Shown: one piece after another, positions 3,844 through 64,000 of the stretch
Numbering within the stretch: the stretch's first letter is position 1
Layout: the number at the start of each line of letters is the position of its first letter
Position numbers and translations under genes: made by a program
Source: a virus
Virus record (IMG/VR): IMGVR_UViG_3300045974_000100
Span: 1 to 64,000 of that record
Length of the DNA stretch: 64,000 nt
Direction: 5' to 3' (one strand)
The notes under the pieces: model-generated
The model's database searches: none
What the model was told of the DNA's origin: nothing
Seen by the model: the letters and a program-made list of their open reading frames with translations, nothing else

Positions 3844-4051
3844 TGGTTTTCCCTTCGATGTATCGGCGAAGTTCAGCGGCCTGAACGCGGGCGCGTGGCT
3901 GCTTGGAGTCCTTCACTCGAATGTCCACGGTGGCGAGTTCGCCTGTTTTGATGAGCCGGTAGACATGCATCCGGGAACATCGTAGAGCGTCTGCCACATC
4001 GGGAATGGTGAGTAGCTGGGGTGTTCCCGTGAGCGGTTCGGGTGTCTCCAT
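3836..4051 (-). CDS. Excisionase-like helix-turn-helix DNA-binding protein
   Basis: The 71-aa product has a MerR/excisionase-type winged HTH: LLTIPDVADALRCS at residues 13-26, then MHVYRLIKTGEL at 28-39 and a basic wing. This is the HTH_17 pattern seen in phage excisionases and small transcription factors. No integrase gene lies in the window, so a role as a transcriptional regulator is as likely as one as a recombination directionality factor. It is the last purely regulatory-looking gene before two virion-like genes upstream in the same operon. Confidence 0.75.
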   Translation of the reverse strand: METPEPLTGTPQLLTIPDVADALRCSRMHVYRLIKTGELATVDIRVKDSKQPRARVQAAELRRYIEGKTSV

Positions 4052-4090
4052 GCGTCACATACTGCATCACACCGTCACCGGTGTCTAGTC

Positions 4091-4675
4091 CTAGAGGACA
4101 GGCATCCCAGAAATCGGTCCAGCGACCGTCAAATAGATGCTCGTCACCGAACCGTTGATCTGATAGCAGGCCACATAGGACCCGATAACGTCCCCAGCCA
4201 CGCACGGAATCAGTGCCATGGCATTGGCGAACGCCGTGTTGCCGTTGATGTCCGTGACCAACGTCTTGCCGTTGACCATGGCAACCGTATTGACCGAGAA
4301 GTCGTGCTCGAAGTGGGACGTACCAGTACCAGGAGCGAAACCTGCCTGCGCAGTGGCGATGTAGAGCCCGTCTCGAGCCACCACCACACCGCCAGAACTG
4401 AACGTCATATCGGTGTCATTGGCCGACGAATACAGACCCTCCCACGACACCTGCACTGGAGCGGCACCAAACGTGAGAGCGATCGGGGTAGTGGTCTTGT
4501 ACACAACGATCGACCCGGCCGGCGGTGATGGGGTAATGCCTTGCCATTCGCCGTTCTTGTACATCAGCGCATGCGTCGGGCCGCCAGGGAGAACATCAGT
4601 GAGGTCAGTCAACTGATGGGTGTGACCCAACCTGGCCTGCTGAGTGCCCACCTTCATACCGGGATTGCCAGCCAT
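4091..4675 (-). CDS. Virion-type beta-sandwich protein, C1q/TNF-like
   Basis: The 194-aa chain opens with a short GHTHQLTDLTDV segment, common as a connector in phage fibres. It continues with a beta-rich jelly-roll-like domain whose GVVVARDGLYIATAQAGF segment near residue 95 resembles C1q/TNF-like domains of phage fibre and decoration proteins. The start codon overlaps the stop of the 434-aa fibre-like gene upstream, so the two are probably made together. A structural gene inside the leftward, replication-type operon is unusual. A fibre head or capsid decoration role is inferred from fold-like pattern only. Confidence 0.6.
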   Translation of the reverse strand: MAGNPGMKVGTQQARLGHTHQLTDLTDVLPGGPTHALMYKNGEWQGITPSPPAGSIVVYKTTTPIALTFGAAPVQVSWEGLYSSANDTDMTFSSGGVVVARDGLYIATAQAGFAPGTGTSHFEHDFSVNTVAMVNGKTLVTDINGNTAFANAMALIPCVAGDVIGSYVACYQINGSVTSIYLTVAGPISGMPVL

Positions 4676-5979
4676 TACGGCACCGTCACTCTCAACGTGA
4701 ATAGCGGAAGGGTGTCAGTCAAACCGATATGAGCGTCCAGGTGGTTCGTGCCGATGCCGGCCGACAGGACGTTGTTCCACATCAGGCCTTTAGCGTCCCC
4801 ATGCAGTAACGGATTCAAGAAGTCCGCAGCACCGGCGACCTGCAAGATGTACATGCGGTATTGCCCGCTTGGCTGCCCGGATCCGCTCCATGCGTCGATG
4901 TTCAGTCCGAGGACCCAGCCACCCGTACCGGTCAAACCAGTGATTGTGCCTTCAACCCACCTGGTGGTGTCAGTGATGTGCACACACCGCACCCGGTTGC
5001 CGATCGCATACGAACCCATGTTGTTGCCGCCAGTGGTGGCCACGCTGATGATGTTCGCGCCCATAGCTGGAGCGAAAGCGCCCACGATCGTGTTGTTGTA
5101 GCCGGCGGACACGAAAGGCAACGAGATCCATGCTTCAGTGCCAGGAAACATCCCCACGCCGGCGAACGCTGTACCGGTGAGGTACTGGTGGCCGGTGGTG
5201 GAGTCAAACGTCACCGACATGTCAGCGTAGGTGTGCAACTTCCACGGGATCGTCTGTCGCGCCGTCACACCCAACTGAGGAAGCGAGGACACATAGACCT
5301 CAACCTTGGACACTGTCGACCCGATAAGTGGTTGAAGGTCAGCAAGGTCATACCAACTCAAACCCTGCCAATAGTCGAAACCAGTACCAGAAGTTCCTGT
5401 CCGGCCGGTGATGGCGTGCAGTGTTGCAGGGTCAACCCAATCCCATCCGTCGGTGCTGCTGCCGCCACCAGAGCCCACAAGATACGGCTTGATGTAGTAG
5501 ACGCCAGAGGTGTTGAGCGCATCAATGAAGTTGATCGTGCCATCAGTGATGTTGAGCGTGATTGCTGTGTTGATGCCCGTTCCGGTGCCGGTGACGTTCG
5601 CCGACTCAGGGGAGGTGATGAGGTCAGATAAGGCCGCCACCACACGATGCTGATAGCGGCCCGTTCCCAACCCGTTCAACGTGATCGATGCTGTTGTGCC
5701 CGTGTCGGGTTGCGGTGTGGATGCCACGATCTTGTTGTTGGACACGTCGACCAGGAGGTAGAAGTTCGCCCCACTGACCTGGTTCCACGTGTAGGTGATG
5801 ATGCCGTAGTTGCCGCTCACGCTGAATGTCGCCACAAACCCGGTCGGGGCCGAGAGAGCGTCGGTGATCGACTTCGGCGTCCATGTGTCACTCGGTCCGA
5901 CGGTCCAGTCCGAGCCGACCATGTTGCCGCTAAACGGAAGGAAGATCCTCGGTGTAGGAGTACTCGTCAGACGGCTCAT
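4675..5979 (-). CDS. Putative minor tail/fibre protein with FN3-like domain
   Basis: The 434-aa product has a fibronectin type III-like segment at about residues 42-135 (APTGFVATF, ITYTWNQVSGANFY, GTGRYQHRVVA). A long Gly/Thr/Ser-rich beta region follows, typical of receptor-binding tail proteins. I start it at the ATG at 5979 because GGAG lies 7 nt upstream; a TTG three bases further out is less likely. It overlaps the end of the HTH gene by about 50 nt. It is coupled to the C1q-like gene downstream, so the pair may form one adhesin lying far from the main tail operon. Confidence 0.6.
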   Translation of the reverse strand: MSRLTSTPTPRIFLPFSGNMVGSDWTVGPSDTWTPKSITDALSAPTGFVATFSVSGNYGIITYTWNQVSGANFYLLVDVSNNKIVASTPQPDTGTTASITLNGLGTGRYQHRVVAALSDLITSPESANVTGTGTGINTAITLNITDGTINFIDALNTSGVYYIKPYLVGSGGGSSTDGWDWVDPATLHAITGRTGTSGTGFDYWQGLSWYDLADLQPLIGSTVSKVEVYVSSLPQLGVTARQTIPWKLHTYADMSVTFDSTTGHQYLTGTAFAGVGMFPGTEAWISLPFVSAGYNNTIVGAFAPAMGANIISVATTGGNNMGSYAIGNRVRCVHITDTTRWVEGTITGLTGTGGWVLGLNIDAWSGSGQPSGQYRMYILQVAGAADFLNPLLHGDAKGLMWNNVLSAGIGTNHLDAHIGLTDTLPLFTLRVTVP

Positions 5980-6487
5980 CAATTCGCTCCACGCTTGTGG
6001 TGTACATGGCGTTGGCTGCGGCTTGTTCCAAAGCCAAACGGTACCCCTCGGGGTCGTTTCGGGTGACGAGCGTGTGTAGCAACGTCGCCGAATCCAATGT
6101 CTCCAGGCCCATCAACTTGGCCCGTTTGTCGATGTAGGACAGCACCGTCCGAGCGGCGTTCACGTCGCCAGCGAGGGCGGCCGGATAGATCGCAGCCTGC
6201 ATCTCGTCGAGCCGTTCAATCTCCAACTGCAGCTGCTCGGTCTTCTTGGCCTGGGACACCATGTCGGCGGCCTCTTTGAGGTGCGTCACGGTGATCTGGC
6301 TGACCTCGTGGTGGGTGATGCCCAGTTCCTCGGCGATCTGCCAATAGGACTTGCCCTGGCGCCGGAGCCGGAGAGCCTCAGCGTTGCGCTTGTCGCGTTC
6401 CTCTTGTTCAGCGATCTCCGCCTCGGCTAACTGCCGGGCTTCGATCTCCTTGGCGAGCAAACCGCCGGCTGTGGGCTTACGAGGCAT
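5930..6487 (-). CDS. HTH protein resembling a small terminase subunit
   Basis: The 185-aa product has a helix-turn-helix near residues 42-62 (GKSYWQIAEELGITHHEVSQ). A charged helix follows, then the segment IYPAALAGDVNAARTVLSYI with a RAKLMGLE ending. That AGDxxAxxxxLxxxxxRAKLxGL pattern is common in phage small-terminase-like proteins. AGGAAGG lies 8 nt before the ATG at 6487, so I prefer this start to the in-frame GTG at 6496. The large terminase is 20 kb away on the other strand, so DNA recognition for packaging is an inference. Confidence 0.6.
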   Translation of the reverse strand: MPRKPTAGGLLAKEIEARQLAEAEIAEQEERDKRNAEALRLRRQGKSYWQIAEELGITHHEVSQITVTHLKEAADMVSQAKKTEQLQLEIERLDEMQAAIYPAALAGDVNAARTVLSYIDKRAKLMGLETLDSATLLHTLVTRNDPEGYRLALEQAAANAMYTTSVERIDEPSDEYSYTEDLPSV

Positions 6488-6767
6488 GAGCGACACCTTC
6501 CTGGCTGTGGGTTATAGATTCCCACAAAGCGAACGCCACGGCCCTGTTGCCGGAAGCCATACGGAGCAGTTTGCGCCGTTCAGCGGCGGACTGGCCTCCC
6601 CACACTCCCCATTGGTCCTCAGTCTTGAGAGCCAACTTCAAGCAACGGGCCGTGGCATGACACCAACCACAGATCGCTTTTGCCTTGAGGATCTCGCAAT
6701 GCGTCATCACTTCGTCAAGCCCGAACATCACCACTGGGCTCAAGCCCTTGCATAGGGCCTTCTCCAT
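6477..6767 (-). CDS. whiB: WhiB-family iron-sulfur transcription factor
   Basis: The 96-aa product has four cysteines in WhiB spacing: C6, then C33-x2-C36-x5-C42, to bind a 4Fe-4S cluster. The family turn GVWGG lies at residues 54-58, followed by a basic AAERRKLLR tail for DNA binding. WhiB proteins are restricted to actinobacteria and their phages and act with the principal sigma factor to regulate transcription, which points to the host group. The start at 6767 keeps the first cluster cysteine. It overlaps the resolvase gene by 53 nt and the HTH gene by 11 nt. Confidence 0.9.
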   Translation of the reverse strand: MEKALCKGLSPVVMFGLDEVMTHCEILKAKAICGWCHATARCLKLALKTEDQWGVWGGQSAAERRKLLRMASGNRAVAFALWESITHSQEGVAHAS

Positions 6768-7278
6768 CGTCGAATCCGAAATACGAGTGTCCGAATAGGG
6801 CGATACACGCAGCGTCGATGCTGTCCTGGGACGAGCAGAAGTCAAAGATGTCCGGGTGCTCAACTGCGAGCCACCTCGCAATGTCGCTCTTGCTGGCATT
6901 CCCCGCCCCTATGACTTTCTTCTTCCACACCATGGGATGAACAAACGTCAATCGCGACAATGGGACCCCAGCGCCATAAGCGGCAGAGGCCAAAGCCCCT
7001 TGAACGCGAGACATCCTCAACCCGGTTCGCATGTCCTTGTGGCCTTGAATCGAGTCCTCGATGACGACATAAGGTTCCCACTCCGGTGGCGCCGCGGAGA
7101 TGAACCCTCCCAACCACTGGGCCAAATTGGTGATGTAGAGCGTGTCGTCCTGCTTCTCAGCCAACTCCATTTCCTTCGTGGCCCACCAATCACCGGGATA
7201 CCAATGGCTTGAAGGGAAGAACGATGCGATGGCAATGCGCCTGGTCGCATAGTCGACACCGATGATGTACGGAGTCAC
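6715..7278 (-). CDS. RuvC-like Holliday junction resolvase
   Basis: The 187-aa protein has an RNase H-like fold with RuvC-type acidic residues: D9 in YIIGVDYATRR, E74 in VVIEDSIQG, and D152/D155 in SQDSIDAACIALFG. RuvC enzymes cut four-way junctions, and phage versions resolve replication or recombination intermediates before packaging. The start is a GTG at 7278, forming a GTGA overlap with the upstream stop. It sits between WhiB and a mini transglycosylase, upstream of which lie the replication genes. Confidence 0.8.
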   Translation of the reverse strand: MTPYIIGVDYATRRIAIASFFPSSHWYPGDWWATKEMELAEKQDDTLYITNLAQWLGGFISAAPPEWEPYVVIEDSIQGHKDMRTGLRMSRVQGALASAAYGAGVPLSRLTFVHPMVWKKKVIGAGNASKSDIARWLAVEHPDIFDFCSSQDSIDAACIALFGHSYFGFDDGEGPMQGLEPSGDVRA

Positions 7279-7502
7279 AGTCCTGCTTTCTTCGAGCAGA
7301 CAGGCCAAGCACCCCATCCCTGACGGGCCTGGATGTATTTGGCTAAGCGGAGCTGCTGTGCGGCGCTGGTGAAGCGGGCCTTGTCAGCCTTGACCCCGAT
7401 GTTGGGGAACCAGCGCTTGTCGATCTGGAACAGGCCCACGTAGGTGTGGGACCAGTCGACTTCGTGGACGTGCATGCGGCTTTCACAGAAAGCGATGGTC
7501 AT
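7275..7502 (-). CDS. Mini lytic transglycosylase-like protein, 75 aa
   Basis: The product MTIAFCESRMHVHEV looks like the catalytic core of transglycosylase/Rpf-type lysozyme folds. It has a catalytic-type glutamate at E7 in the CESR motif, GLFQID at 23-28 and GWGAWPVC at 62-69. C6 and C69 could form a disulfide as in Rpf domains. I start at the ATG at 7502, with a GGA 7 nt upstream; a much longer in-frame extension to 7847 reads through the neighbouring gene and has no lysozyme features. No signal peptide is visible. At 75 aa it is near the minimum for this fold, so activity is uncertain. Confidence 0.6.
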   Translation of the reverse strand: MTIAFCESRMHVHEVDWSHTYVGLFQIDKRWFPNIGVKADKARFTSAAQQLRLAKYIQARQGWGAWPVCSKKAGL

Positions 7503-7839
7503 CCAAGGTTCCGGCAACACCATTGAACGCGAGGAGAGCAACGTACTCTTCCGGCGTGAGGATGACGGCTGCAAGGTCGGGGTCGATGACTCCACTACGG
7601 CCGACGACTTTGTAGTTCCTGAGGATCTGTTCCCATGACTCAACTTCGGCATTGGGGAAAAGAACGTCAGTGGCCTGCTTGAGGCCAGGTGGGGCTTCGC
7701 TGGAGACACGCCAGCCGTCAAGGTCTCGGGTGTAGATCGGGATGAGGGCGCCGATGCTACGTCTTGCGGTGCAGAGGAGGGACCCCAAAGGAGGCTCAAC
7801 GTCAGGCAACTCATCAAGGTTAAGGAACTCAACTTCCAT
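7483..7839 (-). CDS. Hypothetical protein, 118 aa
   Basis: This soluble acidic protein is placed from the ATG at 7839; a TTG at 7857 is an alternative with no ribosome-binding site. A GGAG lies 12 nt before the chosen ATG, longer than usual. The chain is Asp/Glu-rich at its start (EVEFLNLDELPDVEP) and ends in a helical segment. Its end overlaps the mini transglycosylase gene by 20 nt. No domain is recognised. Confidence 0.62.
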   Translation of the reverse strand: MEVEFLNLDELPDVEPPLGSLLCTARRSIGALIPIYTRDLDGWRVSSEAPPGLKQATDVLFPNAEVESWEQILRNYKVVGRSGVIDPDLAAVILTPEEYVALLAFNGVAGTLDDHRFL

Positions 7840-7859
7840 ATCTTCATCAGTCTCCAATG

Positions 7860-8234
7860 TCAGAGGGACATCGACGCGCGAACCGAAGCGCCCATGGACT
7901 GGAACAGGGACACCTTCGTCCGCACCATCTCGGCACGTGCACGGCAGGCCTTCACCGACATTTCGGCTCCGGCCAGTTCTTCGCGTTCGCGTTCAGTGTT
8001 CACGTCGATGGTGGCGTCGGCTAGGGCCACAGTCATCTTTTCTCCGGACCGGTAGATCGCTACGCGGGCCTTGGCCTGAGCCAACTCGTAACTCTTCTTC
8101 GCCTCAACGTAGGCCTGCTCAGCGTCGATGAGGTCTTCGGTGACGCCTTCAAGGTCGAGTTCCACCTGCAGGAGGCGTTGCTCGATCTCCATCGGTGTCA
8201 TCGGTTGACGGTTCTTGGTACGTGGTGGGGTCAT
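7860..8234 (-). CDS. Hypothetical coiled-coil protein, 124 aa
   Basis: The ATG at 8234 has AAGGA 9 nt upstream and lies inside the end of the HNH gene (86-nt overlap). The product begins MTPPRTKNRQ and is then almost entirely helical. Long charged heptads at about residues 15-110 (ELDLEGVTEDLIDAEQAY onward) predict a coiled coil. This suggests a dimeric structural or adaptor protein. Function is unknown. Confidence 0.65.
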   Translation of the reverse strand: MTPPRTKNRQPMTPMEIEQRLLQVELDLEGVTEDLIDAEQAYVEAKKSYELAQAKARVAIYRSGEKMTVALADATIDVNTEREREELAGAEMSVKACRARAEMVRTKVSLFQSMGASVRASMSL

Positions 8235-8553
8235 TGTCGTTGATCCTTGTGTAGGTGCCGTCATCGTTGAGCATTGCCAGGAAAGCGCGATGCAAACGGA
8301 CCGGCACGAGGTAGGACAGTTGGTTGCCACGGATCATCCAGCCGTTCTGGTAAGCGACAGCAGGACTCAAGTGGATCGAATCGACGCTGCCGTTGTGGCA
8401 GTTGTGGTGGCAGATCAGCAGATTGCTGGGACGGTTGTCGGCGCGTTTACCGGTCTTGCGGTGGTGGACGGCGAACTGGTTCGTCATCGGGAAACCGCAC
8501 ACATCGCAGTAGCCGCGGGAACGCACCCACAGCACCATCCGGATGTTAGTCAT
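8149..8553 (-). CDS. HNH endonuclease
   Basis: The 134-aa product has the full HNH zinc-finger nuclease layout. C16/C19 (YCDVCG) and C48/C52 (LLICHHNCH) hold the structural zinc, and H30-H31, N44 and H53 form the catalytic set. Phage HNH proteins act as homing nucleases or in packaging and recombination. Free-standing copies beside terminase can be packaging partners, but this one sits in the replication operon. The start ATG at 8553 overlaps the Cas4-like gene by 8 nt. Confidence 0.85.
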   Translation of the reverse strand: MTNIRMVLWVRSRGYCDVCGFPMTNQFAVHHRKTGKRADNRPSNLLICHHNCHNGSVDSIHLSPAVAYQNGWMIRGNQLSYLVPVRLHRAFLAMLNDDGTYTRINDNDPTTYQEPSTDDTDGDRATPPAGGTRP

Positions 8554-9310
8554 CAAGCGCCGGTACTTGAGCCTGGTAGCAGTGCGGGGCGAAACCGCAG
8601 TTGTTTTCAAAGAGGAGTTCGTCCTGACGTGTGCGAGGGGTTTTCTTCAATACGGTGTTCTTGCAGCCTTCCAACATGGGTGGCAGTTCACGATTGTGGA
8701 TGGCTTCGTCAGCTGCGGTGAGGATCGCTGACACCGGCTTCCAGATGTTCGTGTCCCATTCCCACAACTGTTCAGACACCTTGCGGTAGTCGTAGGAGTT
8801 CACGAACACGAAGTACACCTGCAGCGTCTTCAAACCCTTCATGTACACGTGGGTGGCTGCCTTGTACCCCCACGACGGTCCGTGTTCAGCGAACCCTTGC
8901 CAGTTGCGGTCGTTCGCGGACTTGATTTCCAGCAACGCGTTGTCCTCAGCGAACAGCCCATCAGCGTTGCCACGGACCGCACCCAATGTCATGGGCACTT
9001 CAATGTCGGACAGAATGCCGGCGGCCAGGCCGTAGAACTGCCACTGGTAGTGCGTCCATGTGCCGTTCTCTGTGGCTTCCAGTGAGAACAGGTCCCAGGG
9101 CTTCTGCGGGATCTTGTAGTAGTTCAGGACGTGGGCGCGTACACAGTGCCCGTTCTTCGACCCGAACATGGACGGCCGCAGCTTGCGGGGACCGTTGATA
9201 CCGGACCGGTCATAGATCTGGTCCTTGATCATCACTTCAGCCACGCGTTCGGCTGCTTCACGTGCGTAGGGCGCGTTCCCTAGTTCAAACATCGCCTTCG
9301 CGTCTTGCAT
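8546..9310 (-). CDS. Cas4/RecB-like PD-(D/E)XK exonuclease
   Basis: The protein (254 aa from the ATG at 9310) has the RecB-nuclease motifs: D117 in GNADGLF, then E128-I-K130 in LLEIKSAND, and a following KAATHVYM segment. One cysteine (C56) precedes and three (C216, C238, C244) follow the nuclease core. This is the arrangement used by Cas4 and AddB-type enzymes to hold a 4Fe-4S cluster. It probably trims DNA ends in recombination-dependent replication. A GTG at 9370 is an alternative start but would overlap the polymerase gene by 86 nt; the chosen start has a weak ribosome site. Confidence 0.78.
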   Translation of the reverse strand: MQDAKAMFELGNAPYAREAAERVAEVMIKDQIYDRSGINGPRKLRPSMFGSKNGHCVRAHVLNYYKIPQKPWDLFSLEATENGTWTHYQWQFYGLAAGILSDIEVPMTLGAVRGNADGLFAEDNALLEIKSANDRNWQGFAEHGPSWGYKAATHVYMKGLKTLQVYFVFVNSYDYRKVSEQLWEWDTNIWKPVSAILTAADEAIHNRELPPMLEGCKNTVLKKTPRTRQDELLFENNCGFAPHCYQAQVPALDD

Positions 9311-12053
9311 CCTCGTCAAGGAGGGCAATCTGATCGGGGCTGCCAGCGGCCTTTCGTCGTTTGGTGACACGTTTTTCCACTTCTCCTAAGGGGAGATCAT
9401 CCAAAGCGCCGTCATCTGCGAGCGCTCCGATGGTGCCTCCTGCTGCTGTGGTGGTGTGGCCTTGAAGTATTGCGTTGCGCCCTGACACTGCACGGTGGTT
9501 CGCACGGGTGGCGAGGTCCACGACGCTCACGTAAGGGGAGTTGTCGATGATGGCTTGTGCTGCTTTTTCACCTACACCGGTGATGGACACCAGACCCCGA
9601 CGGATCGCGGTGGCTTCGTAGTCGACGACATACCCGAGTGAGGGCACGTTGACGTGTGGGGGAAGGATCTTCACCTTCGCTGCGCGGGCAGCCTTGGTGA
9701 ACTTGGTTTGGTCCTCGGTGGCGTCGAACGCGTTGAGCATCGCGCACCAGAACTCGAGCGGGTGGTAGATCTTGAACCAGGCCGTGATGTAGGCGTTGGC
9801 TGCATAGCCAGTGGCGTGAGCACGGTTGAACGAGTAGCCGGCGAACGCTTCAAGTGCGCGTTGAAGCCAGGCGTAGTCTTCGTCGTTCATGCCTGCTTCA
9901 CGAGCTAAGGCCTCCACGCGGATCAGCAGCTCGGCCAGGGTCTTCTTGGCGTTGCCGATGTTCTCGTTGGAGGCCTTGATGGCTTTGCGGGCCTTCTCGA
10001 TCTCTTCGATGGTCATGCCCAGGTTGCGGAAGATATCGAGCGCTTGCTCCTGGTACAAGAGCACACCGTACGTGTCCTTCGTGCCGTCCATGAGGATCGG
10101 ATGCCTCTGGGGGACGTCTTGCTTCTTGTGTTTACGGGCGATGTAGTCCTCAGTCGCACCGGAGTCCATCGTCGCCGGCCGGAACAATGCCATGGCTGCG
10201 ATGAGGTCGCCGAACTTCGTGGGCCGCAGACGTTTCGTCCCATACATGGACGCTTTGCCTTCCAGTTGGAAGACACCAGTGGTTTCACCCTTGGACAGCA
10301 TTCGGTACACGGCGCTGTTGCTGAAGTTGATGGTGCCCAGGTCGACACCAGTGGACTCGATCATCTCCGCGAGCGCCGTGTAGGTCTTGAGTCCGAGGAA
10401 GTCCAACTTCAACAGGCCCAGACGTTCCACATCGTCCTTGTCCAATGCGGTGACCAACGTGCCCGATGAGGCAATCCACACAAGTGGCACCACCGCATCG
10501 TCTTCAGGACTCGCGGTGACCAGCAGCCCTGCCGCACCCTTACCGGTGGAAATGTAGGGAGCACGCTTCTTGGCCTTGGACCCCAATGACTCAATGGCAG
10601 CCAACGCTTTGAAGTCTTCCGGTGGGATGGACTCCACCTTCGGCAACCCGGTGCGGGCACGCCACGTGTAGTACATCTTGATCAGCGAACCCTTGTCGGT
10701 GTCGTCGAAGTCTTTCTCCATCGACACCTGCGCCCACGTCCCGATATGGGTGACGCGGAAGTTGTTCGCCAACCAGTCCACAACCTCTTGGCGCCGTGAC
10801 CCATCCACATCAATGTCAATGTCGGGTGGCTTCATGCGGTCACGGGACAGGAACCGGTCGAACCGTAGGTCCCATTTGATCGGGTCGAACTGGGTGATGT
10901 CAGTCAACCAACACACCAACGATCCCGACGCTGATCCGCGGATAGCGAAGAAGATGCCACGGGAACGGATGTAGTTCGTGACCGCGCGGACGAACAGGAT
11001 GTAGCCAGAGAAGCCAGCCTCCTGCAGGACGTCCAACTCTTCTTGCATGCGTGAGTAGTAGTCGGCTTCCTTGGACTTGGGGATGCCGCCCGAGGCGATC
11101 ACACGCCCGAGGGCCGTCTTACACAACATCTCCAACTCGGTGTCAGGTTGACCCAGGCCAGAGATGTCAGGCACAGACAGTTTGAAGTTCTCCAACTGGG
11201 GGATACGCACACCGACCAGGTCTTGTAGATAGAGCAGACCTTCACGTCCGGCTTCCAGCACCTCTTCGGTGTGATTGTCGACGAGCCAGTTCCAGTCAGC
11301 GATGTGGTACGGCCCGCCATCGAACTTGGCGTCATCACTGTCGTTCGACCACGACACAAGCTGCTTATACGTGTCATGAATGGGCTGATGTTCCGGCAGC
11401 AGGTAATGGCTGTCTTGGGCCAGGATCATCGGCAGCCCCAGTTCGTTGGCCACCTTGAACAGGCGCTGGTTGTAGGCGGCGTCGTCATGCCATTCAGTGA
11501 CGATGTCGTGGTTCTGCGCCTCGATGAAGAACCGGTCGTTGAACCAGCGCGCCAACGTGATCAGGACGTTGTACAGGCCTGTGTCGTCATCAGCGGCGAT
11601 GAGTGTGCCGGCGACCCCACTAATGCAGGACGTCGTGCAGGCAATGCCCTCGAGGCGGCCGTGAGCGAACGCTGCAGCAAGGTCAGCCATGTCGATCAGT
11701 GGCTTGTAGCGGAAGTTCCGCATCGAGTCGTTGACCAGGCGCACGAGGTTCAAATAGCCCTGGTAGTTCAGGGCCAACAGGATCATGTGGAACGACTTCG
11801 GCCTTAGCGCACCGATCCGGTCGTAGGTGACATACGCTTCCACACCCGGCACCGGTTCGATGTCACGTTTGCGGCATTCGGTGTACAGCCGGACGACTCC
11901 ACCCATGTTGCCGTGGTCGGTGAGAGCCAAATGTGTGTAGTTCAGTTCAGCCGCCCGGTCCGCTATCGAATCGACAGTGGGGAGGGCATCTTTGAGGCTG
12001 AAACGAGAGTGAATGTGGGTCCACGGTTGCACAACTGTGTCACTGGGTGTCAT
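9285..12053 (-). CDS. dnaE: DNA polymerase III alpha subunit (DnaE-type), shortened
   Basis: The 922-aa family C replicative polymerase opens with a PHP domain (HIHSRFSLKD at 13-22, LTDHGN at 44-49). The palm aspartates are in PDIDIDVDGSRR at 410-421, and a third is D551 in KLDFLGLKTY. A helix-hairpin-helix (ITGVGEKAAQAI) follows near the end. Bacterial DnaE is about 1160 aa, so the C-terminal OB-fold and tau-binding part appear to be missing. It synthesises phage DNA and probably works with the adjacent primase and helicase. AAGGA precedes the ATG by about 9 nt, and an upstream hairpin separates it from the next gene. Confidence 0.93.
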   Translation of the reverse strand: MTPSDTVVQPWTHIHSRFSLKDALPTVDSIADRAAELNYTHLALTDHGNMGGVVRLYTECRKRDIEPVPGVEAYVTYDRIGALRPKSFHMILLALNYQGYLNLVRLVNDSMRNFRYKPLIDMADLAAAFAHGRLEGIACTTSCISGVAGTLIAADDDTGLYNVLITLARWFNDRFFIEAQNHDIVTEWHDDAAYNQRLFKVANELGLPMILAQDSHYLLPEHQPIHDTYKQLVSWSNDSDDAKFDGGPYHIADWNWLVDNHTEEVLEAGREGLLYLQDLVGVRIPQLENFKLSVPDISGLGQPDTELEMLCKTALGRVIASGGIPKSKEADYYSRMQEELDVLQEAGFSGYILFVRAVTNYIRSRGIFFAIRGSASGSLVCWLTDITQFDPIKWDLRFDRFLSRDRMKPPDIDIDVDGSRRQEVVDWLANNFRVTHIGTWAQVSMEKDFDDTDKGSLIKMYYTWRARTGLPKVESIPPEDFKALAAIESLGSKAKKRAPYISTGKGAAGLLVTASPEDDAVVPLVWIASSGTLVTALDKDDVERLGLLKLDFLGLKTYTALAEMIESTGVDLGTINFSNSAVYRMLSKGETTGVFQLEGKASMYGTKRLRPTKFGDLIAAMALFRPATMDSGATEDYIARKHKKQDVPQRHPILMDGTKDTYGVLLYQEQALDIFRNLGMTIEEIEKARKAIKASNENIGNAKKTLAELLIRVEALAREAGMNDEDYAWLQRALEAFAGYSFNRAHATGYAANAYITAWFKIYHPLEFWCAMLNAFDATEDQTKFTKAARAAKVKILPPHVNVPSLGYVVDYEATAIRRGLVSITGVGEKAAQAIIDNSPYVSVVDLATRANHRAVSGRNAILQGHTTTAAGGTIGALADDGALDDLPLGEVEKRVTKRRKAAGSPDQIALLDEDARREGDV

Positions 12054-12103
12054 TCTGGTGGTCCTTGTGTGTATGCGTGTGGTGCGCAGCGTGTGTGGTT
12101 TGC

Positions 12104-12144
12104 AGAAAGGGCCCCCGTCCCGTGTCGAGGCGAGGGCCCTTTCT
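12104..12144 (-). terminator. Intrinsic-terminator-like hairpin before dnaE
   Basis: AGAAAGGGCCC at 12104-12114 is a perfect 11-bp inverted repeat with GGGCCCTTTCT at 12134-12144 around a 19-nt loop. It lies in the 98-nt gap after the preceding leftward gene and before the polymerase start. The 3' arm ends in a short pyrimidine run (CCCTTTCT). It may partly terminate transcription or set polymerase expression relative to upstream genes. Confidence 0.65.
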
Positions 12145-12151
12145 CATGCCC

Positions 12152-13153
12152 CTAGAACGGGACGACGCGCAGTTCCTCAATGAGCTTCTTGAGTTCAGCC
12201 GTCTTCATCTCAGGGGTGACGGGCACACCACGAGCAGCCAAGAACTTGCGCAGCCGTGACGGCGACCATGACTTCACTTCAGCCTCAGTGGGCAGTGGTG
12301 CCAGTTCCTTCTCATCCACCGGAGCGGGAGTGGGAGTGGCGATCGCGTCGAGCGTGTCACCGTAGCCGGCCGTCGGTGAAGCCAGCGGGTTATCGGCTGG
12401 GTTGCCCTCTTCCCACGGGTCAGACTGCTGTGGGTCCTCCACACCGGAGTCGATGAACGCCACAGCACGAGCGCGAGCGTTGTCCTTCCACTCCTCGACG
12501 TTGAGCAGCAGGTCATCAGACACCGCGATCGCTGGCTTGTCGGGGAACGGCTCGACGTTGATCTCACCCTTTTGCCCGTGGGCTTCGATCTTCCACAGGT
12601 ACGAGGTGGGGTCCGAGGTCTTGGAGGCGTTGCGGAACGCAGCGAACAAGTCTTCGGTCTTGGTCTTACCCACCACGCGCAGGATGATCGGACGCTTACC
12701 TTCGACAGCCTTGACCAGGCGGCCGTCCTTACCGGCAGCGGCGTGAACCAGGACGCACATCGCAAGAGCGTCGGACACAGATGCCATGTCGCGGCCGTCC
12801 TTGCGTGGGTACTTTGTGGAACCGGCGACAGCGTCGTAGTACGGGTCGTACTTGGCTCGACGTTCCGGCTCACCGGTGGTCGGGTTGATGAAGATGCCAG
12901 GCTCGACGTCTTCCACGGGGAAGGTACGCAATGACGACGGCATGTCGCGCTTGCCGTGCGACTCCTTCAAACCGTCGAAGGCCATGACCTCGCGGTAGAA
13001 CACCCAGTCGGTGTGGGGTTCGAGGAACTGCAACCACACGACACCGTCCTTGGGGGTGAGGGCTGCAGAGAACACACCGTTGGATTCGGTGCCTGATCCT
13101 TCTTCTTTGCCAGCCCAGCCGGCACCGATGAAGTCTTCGGGGTTGTAACTCAC
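12152..13153 (-). CDS. Replication-associated protein, possible ssDNA-binding, SAP/LEM-like tail
   Basis: I start this 333-aa protein at the GTG at 13153 (VSYNPEDFIGAGW), which has AAGGAG exactly 9 nt upstream and lies just past the upstream stop. The central part mixes beta strands and acidic loops (EEWKDNARARAVAFID). A Pro/Thr-rich linker follows, then a C-terminal helix pair near residues 295-330 (SWSPSRLRKFLAARGVPVTP) resembling SAP/LEM DNA-binding modules. Its place between primase and polymerase fits a single-strand-binding or polymerase-accessory role. That assignment is inferred from context. Confidence 0.6.
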   Translation of the reverse strand: MSYNPEDFIGAGWAGKEEGSGTESNGVFSAALTPKDGVVWLQFLEPHTDWVFYREVMAFDGLKESHGKRDMPSSLRTFPVEDVEPGIFINPTTGEPERRAKYDPYYDAVAGSTKYPRKDGRDMASVSDALAMCVLVHAAAGKDGRLVKAVEGKRPIILRVVGKTKTEDLFAAFRNASKTSDPTSYLWKIEAHGQKGEINVEPFPDKPAIAVSDDLLLNVEEWKDNARARAVAFIDSGVEDPQQSDPWEEGNPADNPLASPTAGYGDTLDAIATPTPAPVDEKELAPLPTEAEVKSWSPSRLRKFLAARGVPVTPEMKTAELKKLIEELRVVPF

Positions 13154-14733: not shown

Positions 14734-16008
14734 TCAGTGACGTGCTTTGAACGCCTCGGCTTGCTTCTCGGTGACTTCGCCGAACACCAACTTGTTGGGA
14801 TCTGACCAGGTGTAGAACGGTTTGCAGATCTCACCGTTGCGGTTCTTCATCATCGAATGCTTGATCATGAGGCGTTGGTTCACCAGGGCTTGTTCGGCCA
14901 AGATGAGGTCGGCATCCATACCAAGGGAGTCTGACCCGAAGAGGTCTTCGATCCGTGGCTCTTTGGCATTGCCTTCACGGTTGACTCCAGCCGCGGTCCT
15001 ATTGAACTGGACTGCTGAGAGCAAAGGGATGTCATTGCGTTGAGCGACATTGTGCAGCTCCTGACTGACAGCCATGATGCGGTCCGACGGTGAGGCTGAC
15101 TTGTGCAGATGGTTGGCACGCAGTAACTGGATGTGGTCGATGACCATGAGCGTGTCGGGCTCGGCCCAGTCCTCAAGGTCATTGACGTTGACCGAGGGCA
15201 ATTCCTTGGTGGTGATGACGTTGATGTGGCCTGACTCTTCCTGCCATTGGTCGAGCAGGTCGTACTTGGTGCGCATATCGATGTCGGCCCAGTTGCCCTT
15301 GTACGAGTTGCGCAACATGTACCGGTAGAGCCTGTCAGCCATGCGGGACGTCTTCATCTCCAGTGAGAAGAAGTTGACGTTCCACCCGTACTCGGCTGCC
15401 GTGACTGCATGTTCAACCAGACGCCACGTTTTGCCCACACCCATGCGTGCCGCGATGAGCCACACTTCACCCGGTTGATGGCCGTTGGTGACGCGTTGCA
15501 GTTCATCACCGGGTACTGGGCATCCTTCGGCTTCGTTCTCGTCAGCCCTGTACTCGACGACGTTGATGCCTGGTTTGGTCAACGACCGGATGGTACCCAA
15601 CGAGTTCTGCAAACTTTTGACGATGTCGATGGGTTCGTCCACGTCGATCGAGCGCACCGCATCACCGAGACTGGATCGCAGTTCACGGTTCTGTGTGTCC
15701 CGGTTGACTTCGCCTGCAGCCCAGGTGATGGAGATGTCTGGTGCATAGGTGAACGTGGGGAACTTCGACTGCACCAAGGTGACTGCGGGTGCTTGGCCGG
15801 CGCGATGCTGATAGTCGGTGCAGAACCGATGGACCAGCGTGTGTGCGACGAAGTCCTTGTCCTTGATGCCGTACTTGCCTGGGGCGTACTCGCCTGTCTC
15901 AAGCAGGGCCGAGATGAAGTAGGCCTCGTTGTTGATGATGGGTGCGTTGGTGCCGGCTGGCCGCAGTTGGGTGACTGAGGCTTTAGCCGAACCGGTGTCG
16001 GTTGGCAT
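14734..16008 (-). CDS. DnaB-like replicative helicase
   Basis: The 424-aa RecA-fold helicase has a Walker A variant AARMGVGKT at 186-194 with the essential lysine, and Walker B MVIDHIQLL at 288-296. A VQFNR segment further on corresponds to the DnaB motif H3/H4 region. The N-terminal 120 residues resemble the DnaB primase-interacting domain. It probably unwinds the fork ahead of the phage polymerase and recruits the adjacent primase. The start is the ATG at 16008. Confidence 0.9.
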   Translation of the reverse strand: MPTDTGSAKASVTQLRPAGTNAPIINNEAYFISALLETGEYAPGKYGIKDKDFVAHTLVHRFCTDYQHRAGQAPAVTLVQSKFPTFTYAPDISITWAAGEVNRDTQNRELRSSLGDAVRSIDVDEPIDIVKSLQNSLGTIRSLTKPGINVVEYRADENEAEGCPVPGDELQRVTNGHQPGEVWLIAARMGVGKTWRLVEHAVTAAEYGWNVNFFSLEMKTSRMADRLYRYMLRNSYKGNWADIDMRTKYDLLDQWQEESGHINVITTKELPSVNVNDLEDWAEPDTLMVIDHIQLLRANHLHKSASPSDRIMAVSQELHNVAQRNDIPLLSAVQFNRTAAGVNREGNAKEPRIEDLFGSDSLGMDADLILAEQALVNQRLMIKHSMMKNRNGEICKPFYTWSDPNKLVFGEVTEKQAEAFKARH

Positions 16009-18160: not shown

Positions 18161-18440
18161 GACCTTGACGTACGTCAAGTTAGCCCTTCGGGCTCAACCC
18201 GGCTGGCGCCGACCCGAAAGAAGGCGCAAAGCCGGAGGTTAGAACTACAACAACAAGCTTTACGTAAAGATAAATAGTTGGAGACAACTCGACTGAATAA
18301 ATGACGGCCGCTACGCACTGAGCAGGTGCTAGGCGGCCATTGTCATGTCTAGATGTAAGAACTTCCCTGGCGGGAGTAACCTTCCCTGGTAGAAGCACTT
18401 CACCTGGTCTAACCCCAAGAAGCCGCTCACCAGGAGAGAC
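18161..18440 (+). ncRNA. Structured leader RNA ahead of rightward operon
   Basis: About 280 nt without a gene but dense with helices. They are: the palindrome CTTGACGTACGTCAAG at 18164-18179; a stem 182-186/190-194; three stacked helices 196-199/237-240, 200-204/230-234 and 206-210/223-227; two competing helices 243-247/275-279 and 276-280/285-289, the second closed by a GAGA loop; and a long hairpin at 18301-18346 with stems of 5, 6 and 4 bp. Three CCTGG boxes (366-370, 385-389, 404-408) can pair with CCAGG in the ribosome-binding site at 18430-18434. A cis-regulatory RNA is likely. I could not match it to a known riboswitch class. Confidence 0.55.
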
Positions 18441-20904: not shown

Positions 20905-23900
20905 GTGGTACAGCCTCTTGGTGGTCGTAATCTTCGTCCGGACGGCCTGTTCTTCCCGTTCGGTGAGCCTGACCCCAGCATCAACTCTGAGGGCCTGCTC
21001 AACTCCTACGTCTTTCCTGGCAACAGGCCGTCCCCAGCACTTGAAGCGCGCGGCGAGTTCTACCAGATCGGCACAGGCACGTCGATCACGCTGAACCACG
21101 GAACTGGGTGGACCAACAAGCCCCAGTCGGGCGACATCATGGTCGTCACTGTCGTGTGGGATGGCGACTCCAATGGTGCGGGTGCTACTCCGTCTGGGTG
21201 GACGGTGTTGGCCTCGGGCTTCATCCGTAATGGCGGGTCGAACAACGACGGTGCTACGCCTGGGTTCGGGGTGTACTACAAGTTCGCTACTGGTTCAGAA
21301 ACCACAGAGACGTGGAGTGCAGCCTCGTCGACGAACAACTCCATTGCCGTGGTGGGTGTGGCCTACATCGGTGCAAGCACACCTGTTGTGGTGGGCGGGG
21401 ACTACGGAGCATCAGGCCACATAGGCGCGACGTCGATGACGTTGACGAACGCCGTCACTGTAGGCACAGCCGGATCGACGTTGGCGTTGTTCTGGTTGGC
21501 TGACCACTCCACCACCGTCTCGACGATGCGTGGTTCACCTGGCATGTCCTCGAGGTATGCCCAGGGCGCGAACGTGCTGTTGGGTGAGCGCGCAACTCTA
21601 CAGATGCAGTTGCAGCAAAATGCCCAGAGCGGTGCTCAGTCGGGCATCTCCAACCTCGACAGTTTCGCCAGCCTCAACTGGGGCATGGTGGCAGTCGAGA
21701 TCCCTGCCAAGGTCTTTGCTGTTCCCTCTGGCTCATTGAGTCTGGGTGGATCTGCGGGTAGCGCGGCCGCGGCTCCTGCCATCACTGGCGTCTTGATCAT
21801 CGCGTCGTTCTCAGGCATCAACACCACGGCCAATGCCGGTGCATCTGGTTCAGTGACGTTGTCGGGGACGGGCACTGGCAGTTCGGGTGGCGTGTCGGCC
21901 ACAGCCACTGGTTCGCTCACATTGGGTGGGTCTGCCACGTCTGTGGGTGCGGCGACAGCTGCAGGGTCGCTCACTCTTGCAGGTGCTGCGGCGAACATCG
22001 TTCAAGGCCTGACTGGTTCCCTCACTCTTGCGGGTACGGCAACAGCCGGAGCGCCCGTCAGCGCGAACGGCGCATTGACCCTTGCAGGGACGACTACTGC
22101 TCGAGCGGCTGCTACTGCGACAGCGTCGATCGTTCTCGCTGGTACGTCTGCGTGGGTGGTGTCTGCAGTCTCGGGTGCGTTGACACTGGGTGGAAGTGCG
22201 TCTGCGGCTGCTAATGCTCCTCCCGCGGTTGGGGCTCTCACCTTGTCGGGTACTGCGACGTGGCTTGCTCCTGCGATCACGGGTTCGATTACGCTTGCCG
22301 CGTCGGCGACCTGGATAGCGCCGGTGATTGCCGGGTCAGTGAGTCTGGCTGGAACCGCCGCGCTGAGGGGTGCCGCGAGTGCCGTCGGCTCACTGACCTT
22401 GGCGAGCACAGCGACCACTCAAGTCGTGGGCATCGCAGGATCTGTGGTGCTGGTTGGGTCTGCCACAGCTCAGTCACCTGGCGTAGCGACTGGTTCGCTT
22501 ACTTTGTCGGGCGCCGTAAGTGCCAAGGCTGTGGGTGTTGCATCAGGTTCGCTCACTCTTGCCGGTGCAGCAGTAGGACCAGGTACTGCAGCGACTGGTT
22601 CGATCGCGTTGTCGGGAACCGTGCTGTCGACCTTGCCCGGTGGTTTGGCCACGATTTCGGTGCCCTATACCGGCGTCGTCAGCCTGCCAAGTTCTAGTTT
22701 GTTGGTGTCTGACTTCCCTGGCCTTGCTGCCGCATTGCAGCCAAACGACATACTTCTCGTCGCGTTGTGCGCGAGCGGTGACAACGTTCAAGCCACTGCT
22801 CCTGCAAGCATCGACTGGACAACAGGCTCTAACGGGTTTGCCACGCTTGGCACGTGTCGTCAAGTCAACGGTGGTTCGCCGTTGTTCCAGGGCTACAACA
22901 TCATGATGTGGAAGCGCAGTCCGAACTCTTCGGATTCCGTTTGCAGCAGTATGGGCGGCATTTCGTGGACTGACACTGCCTACACTGCTGGCGTCGCCAT
23001 GATTATCCGTGGCGCTGATACAAGTTCTACTCCGTTCGAGGCGTTAGGTGACGGGGCGCTCGTCAATACTGAACCTTCTTGGTCAGCTCAGACGGTGACG
23101 GCGACATCAGGGTCGTTGAGTACAGGCGACGTTCTCGTCAACGCGATTTATGGCTATGAAGCCACTGGCACTCCTGCATCTCCACCTGGCGGTGTGACGC
23201 TGGCTGGTGTCACCAATGTGCAGAACGGCGTATTTGCCGCTCTTGGTTACCAGTTGAGTCCAGGAACAGGTGTTCAGTCACGTAACTGGACATTGACGGG
23301 TGCAGCCACTCCCATTGCTCGTTGGAATCCTGTCGCTGTTGGTTTCAAGGCCGGTGTGGGAACGAGCGGTCCTGGCATCATCGCCAATGCTGGTGCGTCG
23401 GGAAGTTTGTCGTTGGGTGGTGGGGCAACACCTGCAGCTCGAGCAACTGCCACTGGGTCGCTGTCTTTGGGTGGCGGCGCAACGCCGTCCTCTACTGCTG
23501 CGGGCTCGTTGACTCTTGGAGGTACAGCAGCAGCGAATGCTCCTGTTACGTCGACCGGCGCGTTGACGCTTGCCGGTTCTGCTGCTTGGCTGGCACCAGC
23601 GGTGACTGGGGCACTGTCATTGAGCGCGGCAGCGGTGTGGTCCGCACCTGCTCTGACAGGCTCGATCTCGCTATCGGGCGCGGCCAGTCCCGTTGCCCCG
23701 GTCGCTGCGTCTGGTTCGTTGTCTCTGGCAGGCCTGGTCAACTTCGGCATATTCGCCATTGGCTCCCTCACGTTGTCAGGGTCTTTAGCCGCTAGAGGTG
23801 CTGCTACTTCCAATGGTTCGATCACGTTGGTTGGAAGTTCGACTGCTACCTCCAACACCACCGCGTCGGGATCGCTCACCCTGAGTGGAAGTGCCACATG

Positions 23901-61088: not shown

Positions 61089-61144
61089 CAAAAAGACCCA
61101 TGTAGGGGGACCCCAGCCCGTAGGCCAGAGCCCCCCTCAGGGTC
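61089..61144 (-). terminator. Strong bidirectional intrinsic terminator
   Basis: GACCC at 61095-61099 pairs with GGGTC at 61140-61144, and AGGGGG at 61104-61109 with CCCCCT at 61132-61137 inside. Leftward RNA ends in a CUUUUU tract (reverse of AAAAAG at 61089-61094), a canonical intrinsic terminator for the leftward genes. It also sits after the last rightward gene, so it separates convergent transcripts. Confidence 0.8.
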
Positions 61145-61625
61145 ACACCGGTGTGTCGAGGAACGCTTCGATCCGGTCATAAGACCAGGGATCGTTGTCG
61201 ACGCGCTTACCGCGTTCAGCTTCGAAGCGGCCCCACGACGGCGACCCCGGCACATACGGGTTATCCCCGGCCGGGTTGGGAGCGTTGGTGATGCGTTCAA
61301 TCTCAGCCTCAGTCTCAGCGATGAGGCGCAACTTTTCCGCGCGAGAGGTGTTGATCATCTCGGACGGGTCGTAGTTCACGGAGCCAGCCGGCTTCTTCTT
61401 CGGCGGCACTGTCTTGTAAGTGGTCACTGGTTCGGTCACTACGGGAACACCGTCCTTGAAGAAGACGGCGAGCCTGCGCACCGTGTCGACCGCTGCGAAC
61501 ACTGACTGGACCACTCCGGTGACCTGGTGGAACTGGTTCAGGCCCGGAATGAGTCCGGCAGGGTTCGCTTTCACGAACGAAACGAGGCTAGTGACAACCA
61601 CGAGTGAGACGACGATCCAAACCAT
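61143..61625 (-). CDS. Membrane-anchored protein, 160 aa
   Basis: The ATG at 61625 has AGGA 6 nt upstream. A strong hydrophobic segment at residues 1-18 (MVWIVVSLVVVTSLVSF) would anchor it in the membrane or serve as an uncleaved signal. The rest has a Pro/Lys linker and a charged helix (NTSRAEKLRLIAETEAE). It overlaps the upstream gene by 55 nt. It ends at the strong terminator. Function is unknown. Confidence 0.62.
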   Translation of the reverse strand: MVWIVVSLVVVTSLVSFVKANPAGLIPGLNQFHQVTGVVQSVFAAVDTVRRLAVFFKDGVPVVTEPVTTYKTVPPKKKPAGSVNYDPSEMINTSRAEKLRLIAETEAEIERITNAPNPAGDNPYVPGSPSWGRFEAERGKRVDNDPWSYDRIEAFLDTPV

Positions 61626-62545
61626 GTATGGTCCTGTCGAAACGTGGGCTTGTCATTGTGGTCGAACCATTTGTCGGCGCCCCACAGCCACCCGTCAAAG
61701 GTGAGCCGTGACGCGTCCGGCAGCATCGATTGCACCCCGATGGGGAGAGCCGTCATGTAGTTGACTGCCTTCTCCACGGCGTCTTGCACGTTCTCGTTGA
61801 ACACGGCTTCTAGAACATTGGCTTTGGTCTGGTGGAACACTGTGCTGTCCACGATGACGTCGGGGTTCTCAGTCATCCATTCAGTCATCATCCGACCGGC
61901 TTTGAACCCGTACCGTTCCACGAACGCCAACGGGCCCTCCTTGAGGGTCTCCTCGAACTCGTCCGACGGGTCGCCCACCTCACCGATCCAATGGCACTCC
62001 AGGCAACCCAACAGTTCCGAGATGAAGTACACGGCTGACAGGTGCTTGTTCCAATGGGCGATCAGTTCGGTATGGACAGCGTCGGACACCGGATGCACCG
62101 ACCAGGTCGGCAACAGTCCGCGCTCGCCTTCGCCAGCAGATTCCTCTGTGGCTTCGTCGGCGAACAGTTCCACGGGGAGGTTCCTGTTCCAACCATCGAA
62201 CAGGTCCACGGAGAAGTCGACGATCACGGTGGGGAAGGGAATGTCGAGTTCCAGGAAGCTGATGATCTCGACGATCTCCGGGGAGACCTTGAGGTCACGC
62301 ATCACTGGCGACTCCCACCACACCGGGACGGGAATGAACGACCCTGCGAGAGGTTGCGACCAATGTCGGGCGTCCTTGCAGAGCGTGTCCCAGTTCTGAA
62401 CCAAAGCAATCCCCAGACCCGAAGACCCAGGGGCGTGAAGCCGTGCAAACGATCCGGTGGCATCGATGGGTTCGATGAGCCGATAACCGGCGAGGGGAAG
62501 GCGGAAGGCCGGGAATCCGTACCCGACCTTCCCACCTTCAGCCAC
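61571..62545 (-). CDS. Hypothetical protein, 324 aa
   Basis: A GTG start whose first base overlaps the upstream TAG. The protein is soluble, Trp- and Phe-rich, with several helices (EFEETLKEGPLAFVERYG) and a His/Trp-rich end. There are three cysteines and no catalytic motif I recognise. It lies between two membrane-associated genes, so it may work with them at the envelope. Confidence 0.62.
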   Translation of the reverse strand: MAEGGKVGYGFPAFRLPLAGYRLIEPIDATGSFARLHAPGSSGLGIALVQNWDTLCKDARHWSQPLAGSFIPVPVWWESPVMRDLKVSPEIVEIISFLELDIPFPTVIVDFSVDLFDGWNRNLPVELFADEATEESAGEGERGLLPTWSVHPVSDAVHTELIAHWNKHLSAVYFISELLGCLECHWIGEVGDPSDEFEETLKEGPLAFVERYGFKAGRMMTEWMTENPDVIVDSTVFHQTKANVLEAVFNENVQDAVEKAVNYMTALPIGVQSMLPDASRLTFDGWLWGADKWFDHNDKPTFRQDHTWFGSSSHSWLSLASFRS

Positions 62546-63597
62546 TACTTGCGGGGGCGCTGCTTACCGCCCTGGTTACGGTGCTGGGGCTTTCCAGGCA
62601 ACTGGCGCTCCAACTCCTTGACCGCCGCGTCAGCATGCTCGTTGGCCACGATCTTCAAAGGGTGGTCATCTGGGAGAGCGTCGGGGTTAGCCAACTCTTC
62701 CTCAGTGAACGTGCCTTCGGGGACCTGAACCTCGACCAGGCCGTCTGCACGGACCATGGTGGTTCCCTCGATGTTCTCGGGGAGGTCAGCCGGAGCGGCC
62801 TCGGAGGCCGGCGCAGGCGCAATGACAGGCTCGACAACGCTGGACTCAACGGTCACGACAGACACTGGCTTCTTCGTGATCATGTTGTAGGCCATGATGC
62901 CCACGGTCGTCAGCAGGGAGATACCGACGATCGACACCAACGCGGGGAAGCCGCCGTAGACGATGGCGCCGAGCGCGTTGGACAGAACCGGAATGCCTTG
63001 CAGGAATGACGGGACGCCGAAGCTGAATCCGAAGAACGACGCCATGCGGATGGACAGCGCCAGTGACGCTGTTGCTGAGGACACCGAAGTGACAACCTCT
63101 GAGCGGATCGCCATTTGCAGGTGACCCTTGACGTACTCGAGCGCCGGGAAGGCGTTGGACAGGCCGAGTTGGGCCATGGCCAGGTAGTGGTTCACGGTGT
63201 CCCGGTACTTGATGACAGCCGGCTTGTTGCCGTTGGCGTCGGCCTTGGTGACCCAAGAGATGGGGTGCTCAACCAAGTGAAGCGCGGAGCCGATGACACG
63301 GTCGATGGTCCAGCCGATCGCGTAGACGATGCCGTTGAAGGCCTTGGTGGCCAACGCGACAATGGGTTCGGTCAGTTTCGCGAACCCTCCTCGAATCGAC
63401 AGCCAGCCGATCCCAGCCCATGTGGCTGCAGCTCCTGCCTGCGTCTTGACGACGTCGGGGATCCAGTCCGTGACCTTGCTGGTGGCGCTGAGCACGAATG
63501 ACTTCACGTACTCAAAGGCCATGTGCGCCTTGTCCAGGATGACCTGGAGGAAGCGGAGCCGTGATGTGGCTCGTGGGGCAACAACGGATGTTGTCAC
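62545..63597 (-). CDS. Polytopic membrane protein, 350 aa
   Basis: I start at the GTG at 63597 (VTTSVVAPRATSR), which has AAGGAG 7 nt upstream; a longer form from 63717 would read through the parS region. The N-terminal 200 residues have amphipathic helices, and two or three strong hydrophobic segments follow at about 195-215 and 235-268. An acidic, Pro-rich C-terminal third is probably cytosolic. A parS palindrome lies 20 bp upstream, so its expression may be tied to ParB binding. Function is unknown. Confidence 0.6.
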   Translation of the reverse strand: MTTSVVAPRATSRLRFLQVILDKAHMAFEYVKSFVLSATSKVTDWIPDVVKTQAGAAATWAGIGWLSIRGGFAKLTEPIVALATKAFNGIVYAIGWTIDRVIGSALHLVEHPISWVTKADANGNKPAVIKYRDTVNHYLAMAQLGLSNAFPALEYVKGHLQMAIRSEVVTSVSSATASLALSIRMASFFGFSFGVPSFLQGIPVLSNALGAIVYGGFPALVSIVGISLLTTVGIMAYNMITKKPVSVVTVESSVVEPVIAPAPASEAAPADLPENIEGTTMVRADGLVEVQVPEGTFTEEELANPDALPDDHPLKIVANEHADAAVKELERQLPGKPQHRNQGGKQRPRK

Positions 63598-63616
63598 TTC
63601 GAACTCCTTGACTAGT

Positions 63617-63632
63617 GGTTTCACGTGAAACC
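63617..63632. promoter_or_regulatory. parS: Perfect parS-type palindrome (ParB-binding site)
   Basis: GGTTTCACGTGAAACC at 63617-63632 is a perfect 16-bp palindrome. It contains the consensus bacterial parS core GTTTCACGTGAAAC used by actinobacterial chromosomal ParB. No ParA or ParB gene is in the window. It is in the leader of the membrane protein gene. It could tether phage DNA to host partition or use a phage ParB encoded elsewhere. Confidence 0.8.
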
Positions 63633-63661
63633 AGGTGGTGTGGTGCAGGGTGCTGCGTTGC

Positions 63662-63769
63662 GTTATGCACCCACAGGGTTGGCAGGACCGACAGGAGTTG
63701 CAGTTGAACAGGACCACACGTGAAACCCAAGGAGTTCAACCGGTCCTGCCAACCTTGTCGGCGCATAAC
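63662..63769. repeat. 29-bp inverted repeat around a half parS site
   Basis: Arms at 63662-63690 and 63741-63769 are inverted copies that match at 26 of 29 positions, beginning GTTATGC and ending GGTTGGCAGGACCG. They flank a 50-bp centre. That centre contains CACACGTGAAACC (63715-63727), which has one perfect parS half site. The whole 108 bp could fold as a cruciform or an RNA hairpin, and may be a regulator, recombinase or partition site. Confidence 0.7.
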
Positions 63770-63772
63770 AAA

Positions 63773-63815
63773 GGGAACGGCCCGCCCGCAATCTCGGTGC
63801 GAACGGACCGTTCCC
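63773..63815 (-). terminator. Intrinsic terminator of the rightmost gene
   Basis: GGGAACGG at 63773-63780 pairs with CCGTTCCC at 63808-63815 around a 27-nt loop. In the leftward transcript it follows the partial zinc protein and is followed by UUUGUU. It isolates that gene from the membrane protein operon. Confidence 0.7.
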
Positions 63816-63835
63816 GGTGTCTCCGGAGGGAGACG

Positions 63836-64000
63836 TTAAGCCACTGTCAGCCCGAGGTCTTCGAGCGGAATCAGTGCGTTACAGGCTGGGCAGCAAAGCC
63901 GCTCAGTGGTGGAGCCGTCGATAGCACCGACTCCGAAGCCAGGCAGGCCTGACGTGGTGATGGTGTTCTCGGTGCGGCCGACCAGGGGCACGACACGGTG
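63836..64000 (-). CDS. C-terminal part of a zinc-binding-type protein
   Basis: An open frame from the window edge to a TAA at 63836-63838 encodes the last 54 residues of a leftward gene. The segment TERLCCPACNALIPLEDLG has a CPAC pair like a zinc-ribbon end. The start is outside the window. A terminator follows at once. Function cannot be judged from the tail. Confidence 0.55.
   Translation of the reverse strand, partial: HRVVPLVGRTENTITTSGLPGFGVGAIDGSTTERLCCPACNALIPLEDLGLTVA

Follow-up and report, generated by a model that had tools for sequence, protein, structure and literature searches.

We report that a phage genome in which no ParA or ParB was recognized carries what is probably a working parS site, an 18-bp perfect palindrome that, judged from its sequence, would be read by host ParB. 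The generality of parS in unrelated phages is the main new result of this work: the site recurs among them far above chance, which suggests that phages borrow the protein with which their hosts sort chromosomes. That host ParB binds such sites in the cell, and that the phage gains from this binding, we infer.

The window, i.e. the whole 64,000-nt stretch of DNA analysed here, is part of a 73,167-bp virus record that encodes a terminase, a portal, a major capsid protein, a DnaE-type DNA polymerase, a DnaB helicase and a primase. The original prediction had singled out GGTTTCACGTGAAACC (63617–63632) as a flawless palindrome containing a parS core, and this is borne out: the core, GTTTCACGTGAAAC (63618–63631), is exact, and the palindrome remains perfect out to 18 bp (TGGTTTCACGTGAAACCA, 63616–63633), a length that no other perfect palindrome of the window reaches. 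Chromosomal ParABS systems pair a Spo0J-type ParB with a parS consensus such as TGTTNCACGTGAAACA or GTTTCACGTGAAAC (PMC7022226), and the window site has the 14–16 bp palindrome of this chromosomal type. A search of the rest of the record for further copies, as had been proposed, left the exact GTTTCACGTGAAAC single in the entire 73,167 bp, and the second-best 14-mer in the window differs from it at three positions. Under order 1–3 Markov models, 0.8e-4 to 3.8e-4 exact 14-mers are expected per window (one per 2,600–13,000 windows), in line with the earlier estimate of about one per 4,000; the site was chosen out of many scanned windows, so that one chance match per several thousand is expected. 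No GC-skew switch was seen at the palindrome in a coarse profile. The window's other 16-bp perfect palindrome, CTTGACGTACGTCAAG (18164–18179), is unrelated to parS; it is intergenic, lies between divergent gene blocks and is an operator candidate.

The site occupies the leader of a short minus-strand gene series, in the order terminator-like hairpin, large hairpin, palindrome, AAGGAG, GTG start, membrane gene and two more genes. The intrinsic-terminator-like hairpin (63773–63815, minus strand), which has a TTTGTT tail, closes the upstream gene; taken together, sites of this terminator-like kind are no more frequent than in shuffled sequence. The large leader hairpin (63662–63769, minus strand), with two 29-nt arms that are 90% complementary and a 50-nt loop, is the strongest close inverted repeat of the window. 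The palindrome lies 19 nt upstream of the GTG start (63597) of a putative membrane protein of about 350 aa (62545–63597, minus strand; hydrophobic stretches judged by eye), and a Shine-Dalgarno (SD) sequence, AAGGAG, stands between the two (63609–63604). Two further genes follow on the same strand (61571–62545 and 61143–61625), and none of the three (61143–63597) has a Pfam or PHROG match. The claim that the site lies between genes stands if the gene begins at GTG 63597, the start that has the SD; one open frame, from GTG 63717, does run across the palindrome.

Also new here is an inverted duplication of half the palindrome together with the SD within the hairpin of the gene's own leader. The copy, which sits inside the hairpin loop (63717–63737, plus strand), consists of CACGTGAAACC (63717–63727) and CAAGGAGTTC (63728–63737), and in an mRNA of minus-strand sense it is complementary to the parS half and the SD that stand before the gene. 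We considered CAAGGAGTTC as a window-wide start-associated repeat (16 copies with at most one mismatch versus 3.9 in shuffles), and rejected it as most copies are inside predicted genes; only two are accompanied by the half-palindrome, both in this leader.

The original prediction had seen no partition gene, and this holds for the 73,167-bp record, which may be a fragment and which has no match to ParB_N (PF02195) or AAA_31/ParA (PF13614). Integrase-family matches are likewise absent from the record, which encodes a small HTH_17/excisionase-like protein (3836–4051, minus strand). Capsid identity to Arthrobacter phages is about 41%, and just as high to some Pseudomonas and Rhizobium phages, while the polymerase is closest to those of Gordonia, Brevibacterium and Streptomyces phages; the host is likely actinobacterial.

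Is the phage sequence the one that bacteria use? We surveyed 12 genomes of named actinobacteria, all of which hold the exact 18-mer, and located their ParB genes with TIGR00180. Each genome contains 3–14 copies of GTTTCACGTGAAAC, and none contains the reversed control. Among the sites listed, most cluster near the ParB gene and a few lie elsewhere; the distance from cluster to parB is about 10 kb or less in most genomes and about 20–30 kb in one Corynebacterium. Clusters can be dense, with five sites in 3.1 kb in Promicromonospora and seven in 0.8 kb in a Dermabacteraceae strain. Among these 12 genomes the same sequence therefore marks parB regions of bacterial chromosomes, and from this clustering and the absence of the reversed pattern we conclude that the phage carries the parS sequence of the hosts. 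More broadly, at least 120 bacterial contig stretches contain the exact 18-mer, including Arthrobacter, Streptomyces, Glutamicibacter and Corynebacterium. Together with the excess of parS in phages over a matched control, described below, this gives good support to the identification of the site as a genuine chromosomal-type parS.

The excess in phages was seen in two collections. Within IMG/VR, parS with AAGGAG no more than 15 nt downstream (GTTTCACGTGAAACN{0,15}AAGGAG) occurs in at least 119 viral stretches, some of which could be host or plasmid DNA, whereas the matched control GTTTGACGTCAAAC, equal to the parS version in composition, self-complementarity and folding ability, was found before AAGGAG in none. 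Since this hairpin-competent control is missing before SDs, it appears that the sequence itself, and not its folding, has been selected. In 42 aligned examples, the window included, the palindrome is the sole common part, and the distances to SD and start codon vary; the exact GG..CC-flanked variant was not found before an SD in any other IMG/VR contig. Among named phages, a 31-base query built on TGTTTCACGTGAAACA matched 319 of 50,697 records (~0.6%), versus 2 (0.004%) for the control, in BLAST counts that take in partial matches and are inflated by near-identical phages. The matches range over tailed phages, microviruses and one inovirus. Sixty records taken evenly from the 319 include viruses infecting Listeria, Microbacterium, Arthrobacter, Gordonia, Curtobacterium, Glutamicibacter, Lactobacillus, Enterococcus, Bacillus and Chryseobacterium, as well as microviruses such as Spiroplasma phage 4. 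No enterobacterial phage was among these 60; chromosomal par genes are missing from the Enterobacteriaceae (PMC7022226).

Copy number and gene content were assessed in 47 longer parS-bearing viral records. As these were picked for having parS, the extra copies alone count as evidence: 12 records carry 2–7 exact copies, and the reversed control is absent from all. ParB_N was matched in 10 of the 47 (six above the cut-off) and in none of the other 37. In two viral contigs with three and five parS copies (L212 and L298), all eight are intergenic and seven lie no more than 55 nt from a predicted gene boundary. The inovirus bajarodino virus 3 (PQ006097) has six exact parS in 6,183 bases, compared with 0.03 in shuffles.

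Some of the individual genomes deserve description. The PQ006097 copies span 705–5935, with four between annotated genes and two within; one of these two falls just past a start codon. Gordonia phage Woes has two parS cores (1870–1920 and 2290–2330) in the leader regions of genes 89 and 90, both small, each core being centred in a longer perfect palindrome whose arms differ from, and are unrelated to, those of the other; a second repeated hairpin, GAGTCATCCGACTC, adjoins the parS palindromes in these leaders. Two well-known laboratory phages with an exact or nearly exact 16-bp parS would be convenient for tests: Listeria phage A511 has an exact 16-bp parS at 21138–21153, under gp51, and Bacillus phage B103 matches 25 of 26 query bases at 15607–15632, within gene 15, the endolysin gene. 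A literature search with little coverage of subscription journals and none of preprints found no paper with both phage and GTTTCACGTGAAAC, and phrase searches returned nothing, or phages that encode their own parABS; earlier reports of parS in phages may exist.

The closest relatives of the window phage mostly lack the site. When the membrane protein, the terminase and a 783-aa tail-region protein served as queries, megablast and tblastn recovered no relative among named phages, nor did single-protein scans of IMG/VR with the membrane protein and the 783-aa protein, and relatives were reached by capsid alignment alone. The nearest 24 records, with 53–71% capsid identity, have no detectable homologue of the membrane protein, and exact parS is absent from 23 of these 24, many of which are fragments. 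Across all 41 relative records there is one exact copy, in G019, which we rejected as a case of conservation: it sits inside an FkbM-like methyltransferase frame. Nor is there an excess of parS within two mismatches (5, versus 5 for the control). With the exact site in just one of 41 relatives, inside a gene, and no excess of near matches, we conclude that parS is not a trait which this group inherited. Its absence from nearly all of the nearest relatives, and its single copy in the window phage, count against a host-ParB reading of the site.

How might a phage use such a site? ParB loads at parS and then spreads as a CTP-dependent clamp (PMC12704722), and parS-bound ParB is able to lower the expression of adjacent genes (PMC7022226). 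At the phage parS, host ParB would bind, clamp shut in a CTP-dependent manner and then move along into the neighbouring viral sequence. One outcome may be that the cell handles the phage genome as it does its own origin region, keeping it at the nucleoid and passing it to daughter cells while an infection is slow or in a carrier state; inoviruses and carrier-state phages would be well served by this. Alternatively, the cluster of ParB may damp the early operon behind the site. We rate these two outcomes about equal. The original prediction is partly supported: use of host ParB is the most probable explanation, and among the three roles that it named (segregation, hiding at the nucleoid and autoregulation of the membrane gene) the data favour none over the others. 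We are evenly divided on a wider proposal, in which many lineages (ssDNA inoviruses, microviruses, and tailed phages of Actinobacteria and Firmicutes) would carry intergenic host-type parS ahead of ribosome binding sites, mostly without a ParB of their own, to load the host's ParB CTPase clamp, with the window phage as a single-copy example.

Three other explanations have to be weighed against reading by host ParB. A 14-mer match might have arisen without selection among the very many windows scanned, and for this particular site chance has to be considered because the site is single and was picked from a large scan; its lack of conservation in relatives, and the position of the G019 copy in a coding gene, fit such an origin. 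The contrast between 319 named-phage records and 2 for the matched control, however, means that most perfect parS in phages are not due to chance, and the window site is also the sole 18-bp palindrome of its window, intergenic beside an SD and half duplicated nearby. Given the named-phage base rates, we regard chance as the less likely reading, and an unlikely one. Somewhat more doubtful still is that the palindrome and the loop copy of half-palindrome and SD form one RNA element, a switch in which the loop would pair with the SD region and block translation while the palindrome forms a competing small hairpin. This is a live rival on account of the antisense copy, lodged within the loop region of the large hairpin: it can form 21 pairs (11 + 10 nt) with one 6-nt bulge and a duplex energy of −36.6 kcal/mol, and its 11-mer arose in 0 of 20,000 shuffles. 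The leader, moreover, folds better than 200 of 200 shuffles (z −4.06); an Rfam search returned only sub-threshold chance matches. Against the switch, the 21-pair loop-to-tail pairing is topologically demanding, no relatives were found that carry the element, and the hairpin-competent palindrome of the same composition is missing ahead of SDs in viral contigs (0 versus at least 119), so that it takes more than RNA folding to account for this particular sequence.

The site might instead be the operator of a phage regulator that shares the parS sequence by coincidence, or be bound by a phage ParB-like protein that the models used here missed, which we consider the least probable of the three. Intergenic palindromes ahead of genes are typical of operators, the excisionase-like HTH protein noted above could be such a regulator, and the ParB_N matches in 10 of the 47 parS-bearing viral records show that some phages of this kind may have a ParB. 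The record of the window phage, on the other hand, has no ParB_N match, and one exact copy plus one half copy in the leader do not amount to a multi-copy operator set. That unrelated phages of ParB-bearing hosts share the exact host parS points rather to one conserved reader, host ParB.

If host ParB does load on viral genomes, phages would be making use of the clamp at the heart of chromosome segregation in most bacteria. For non-integrating phages this would be a simple route to stay at the nucleoid and reach daughter cells; alternatively, the segregation state of the host would set phage gene expression. The idea is directly testable in phages of tractable hosts that have the site, e.g. the phi29-like phage B103 of Bacillus subtilis.

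Several known systems bear comparison with this arrangement. The start-associated and extended start-associated repeats of cluster K mycobacteriophages comprise an inverted repeat shortly upstream of the SD; their sequences are specific to the phages, and a single genome has them at many of its genes. The window site is similarly an inverted repeat close upstream of an SD, but it is present in one copy and has the sequence of host parS. KorB and plasmid ParB proteins regulate transcription from promoter-proximal sites (reviewed in PMC7022226), and a ParB-type protein bound just upstream of the membrane gene could damp it in a like manner; KorB is plasmid-encoded, whereas the reader proposed here is the ParB of the host chromosome. 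Extrachromosomal prophages of cluster A mycobacteriophages (RedRock, Miko) encode their own ParA and ParB, and the parS loci of RedRock consist of arrayed 8-bp direct repeats (PMC7157519). The window phage resembles these in having a centromere-like site and a record free of integrase matches. It differs in that no parA or parB of the RedRock type was found (no PF02195 or PF13614 match), and its site is a single palindrome of chromosomal type, with no tandem 8-bp array in 63400–64000. Compared with chromosomal ParABS, the site is unusual in being phage-borne and single, in a record with no parA or parB match; its 14-bp core is nevertheless identical to chromosomal parS, and the exact 18-mer is found in bacterial, and in particular actinobacterial, chromosomes.
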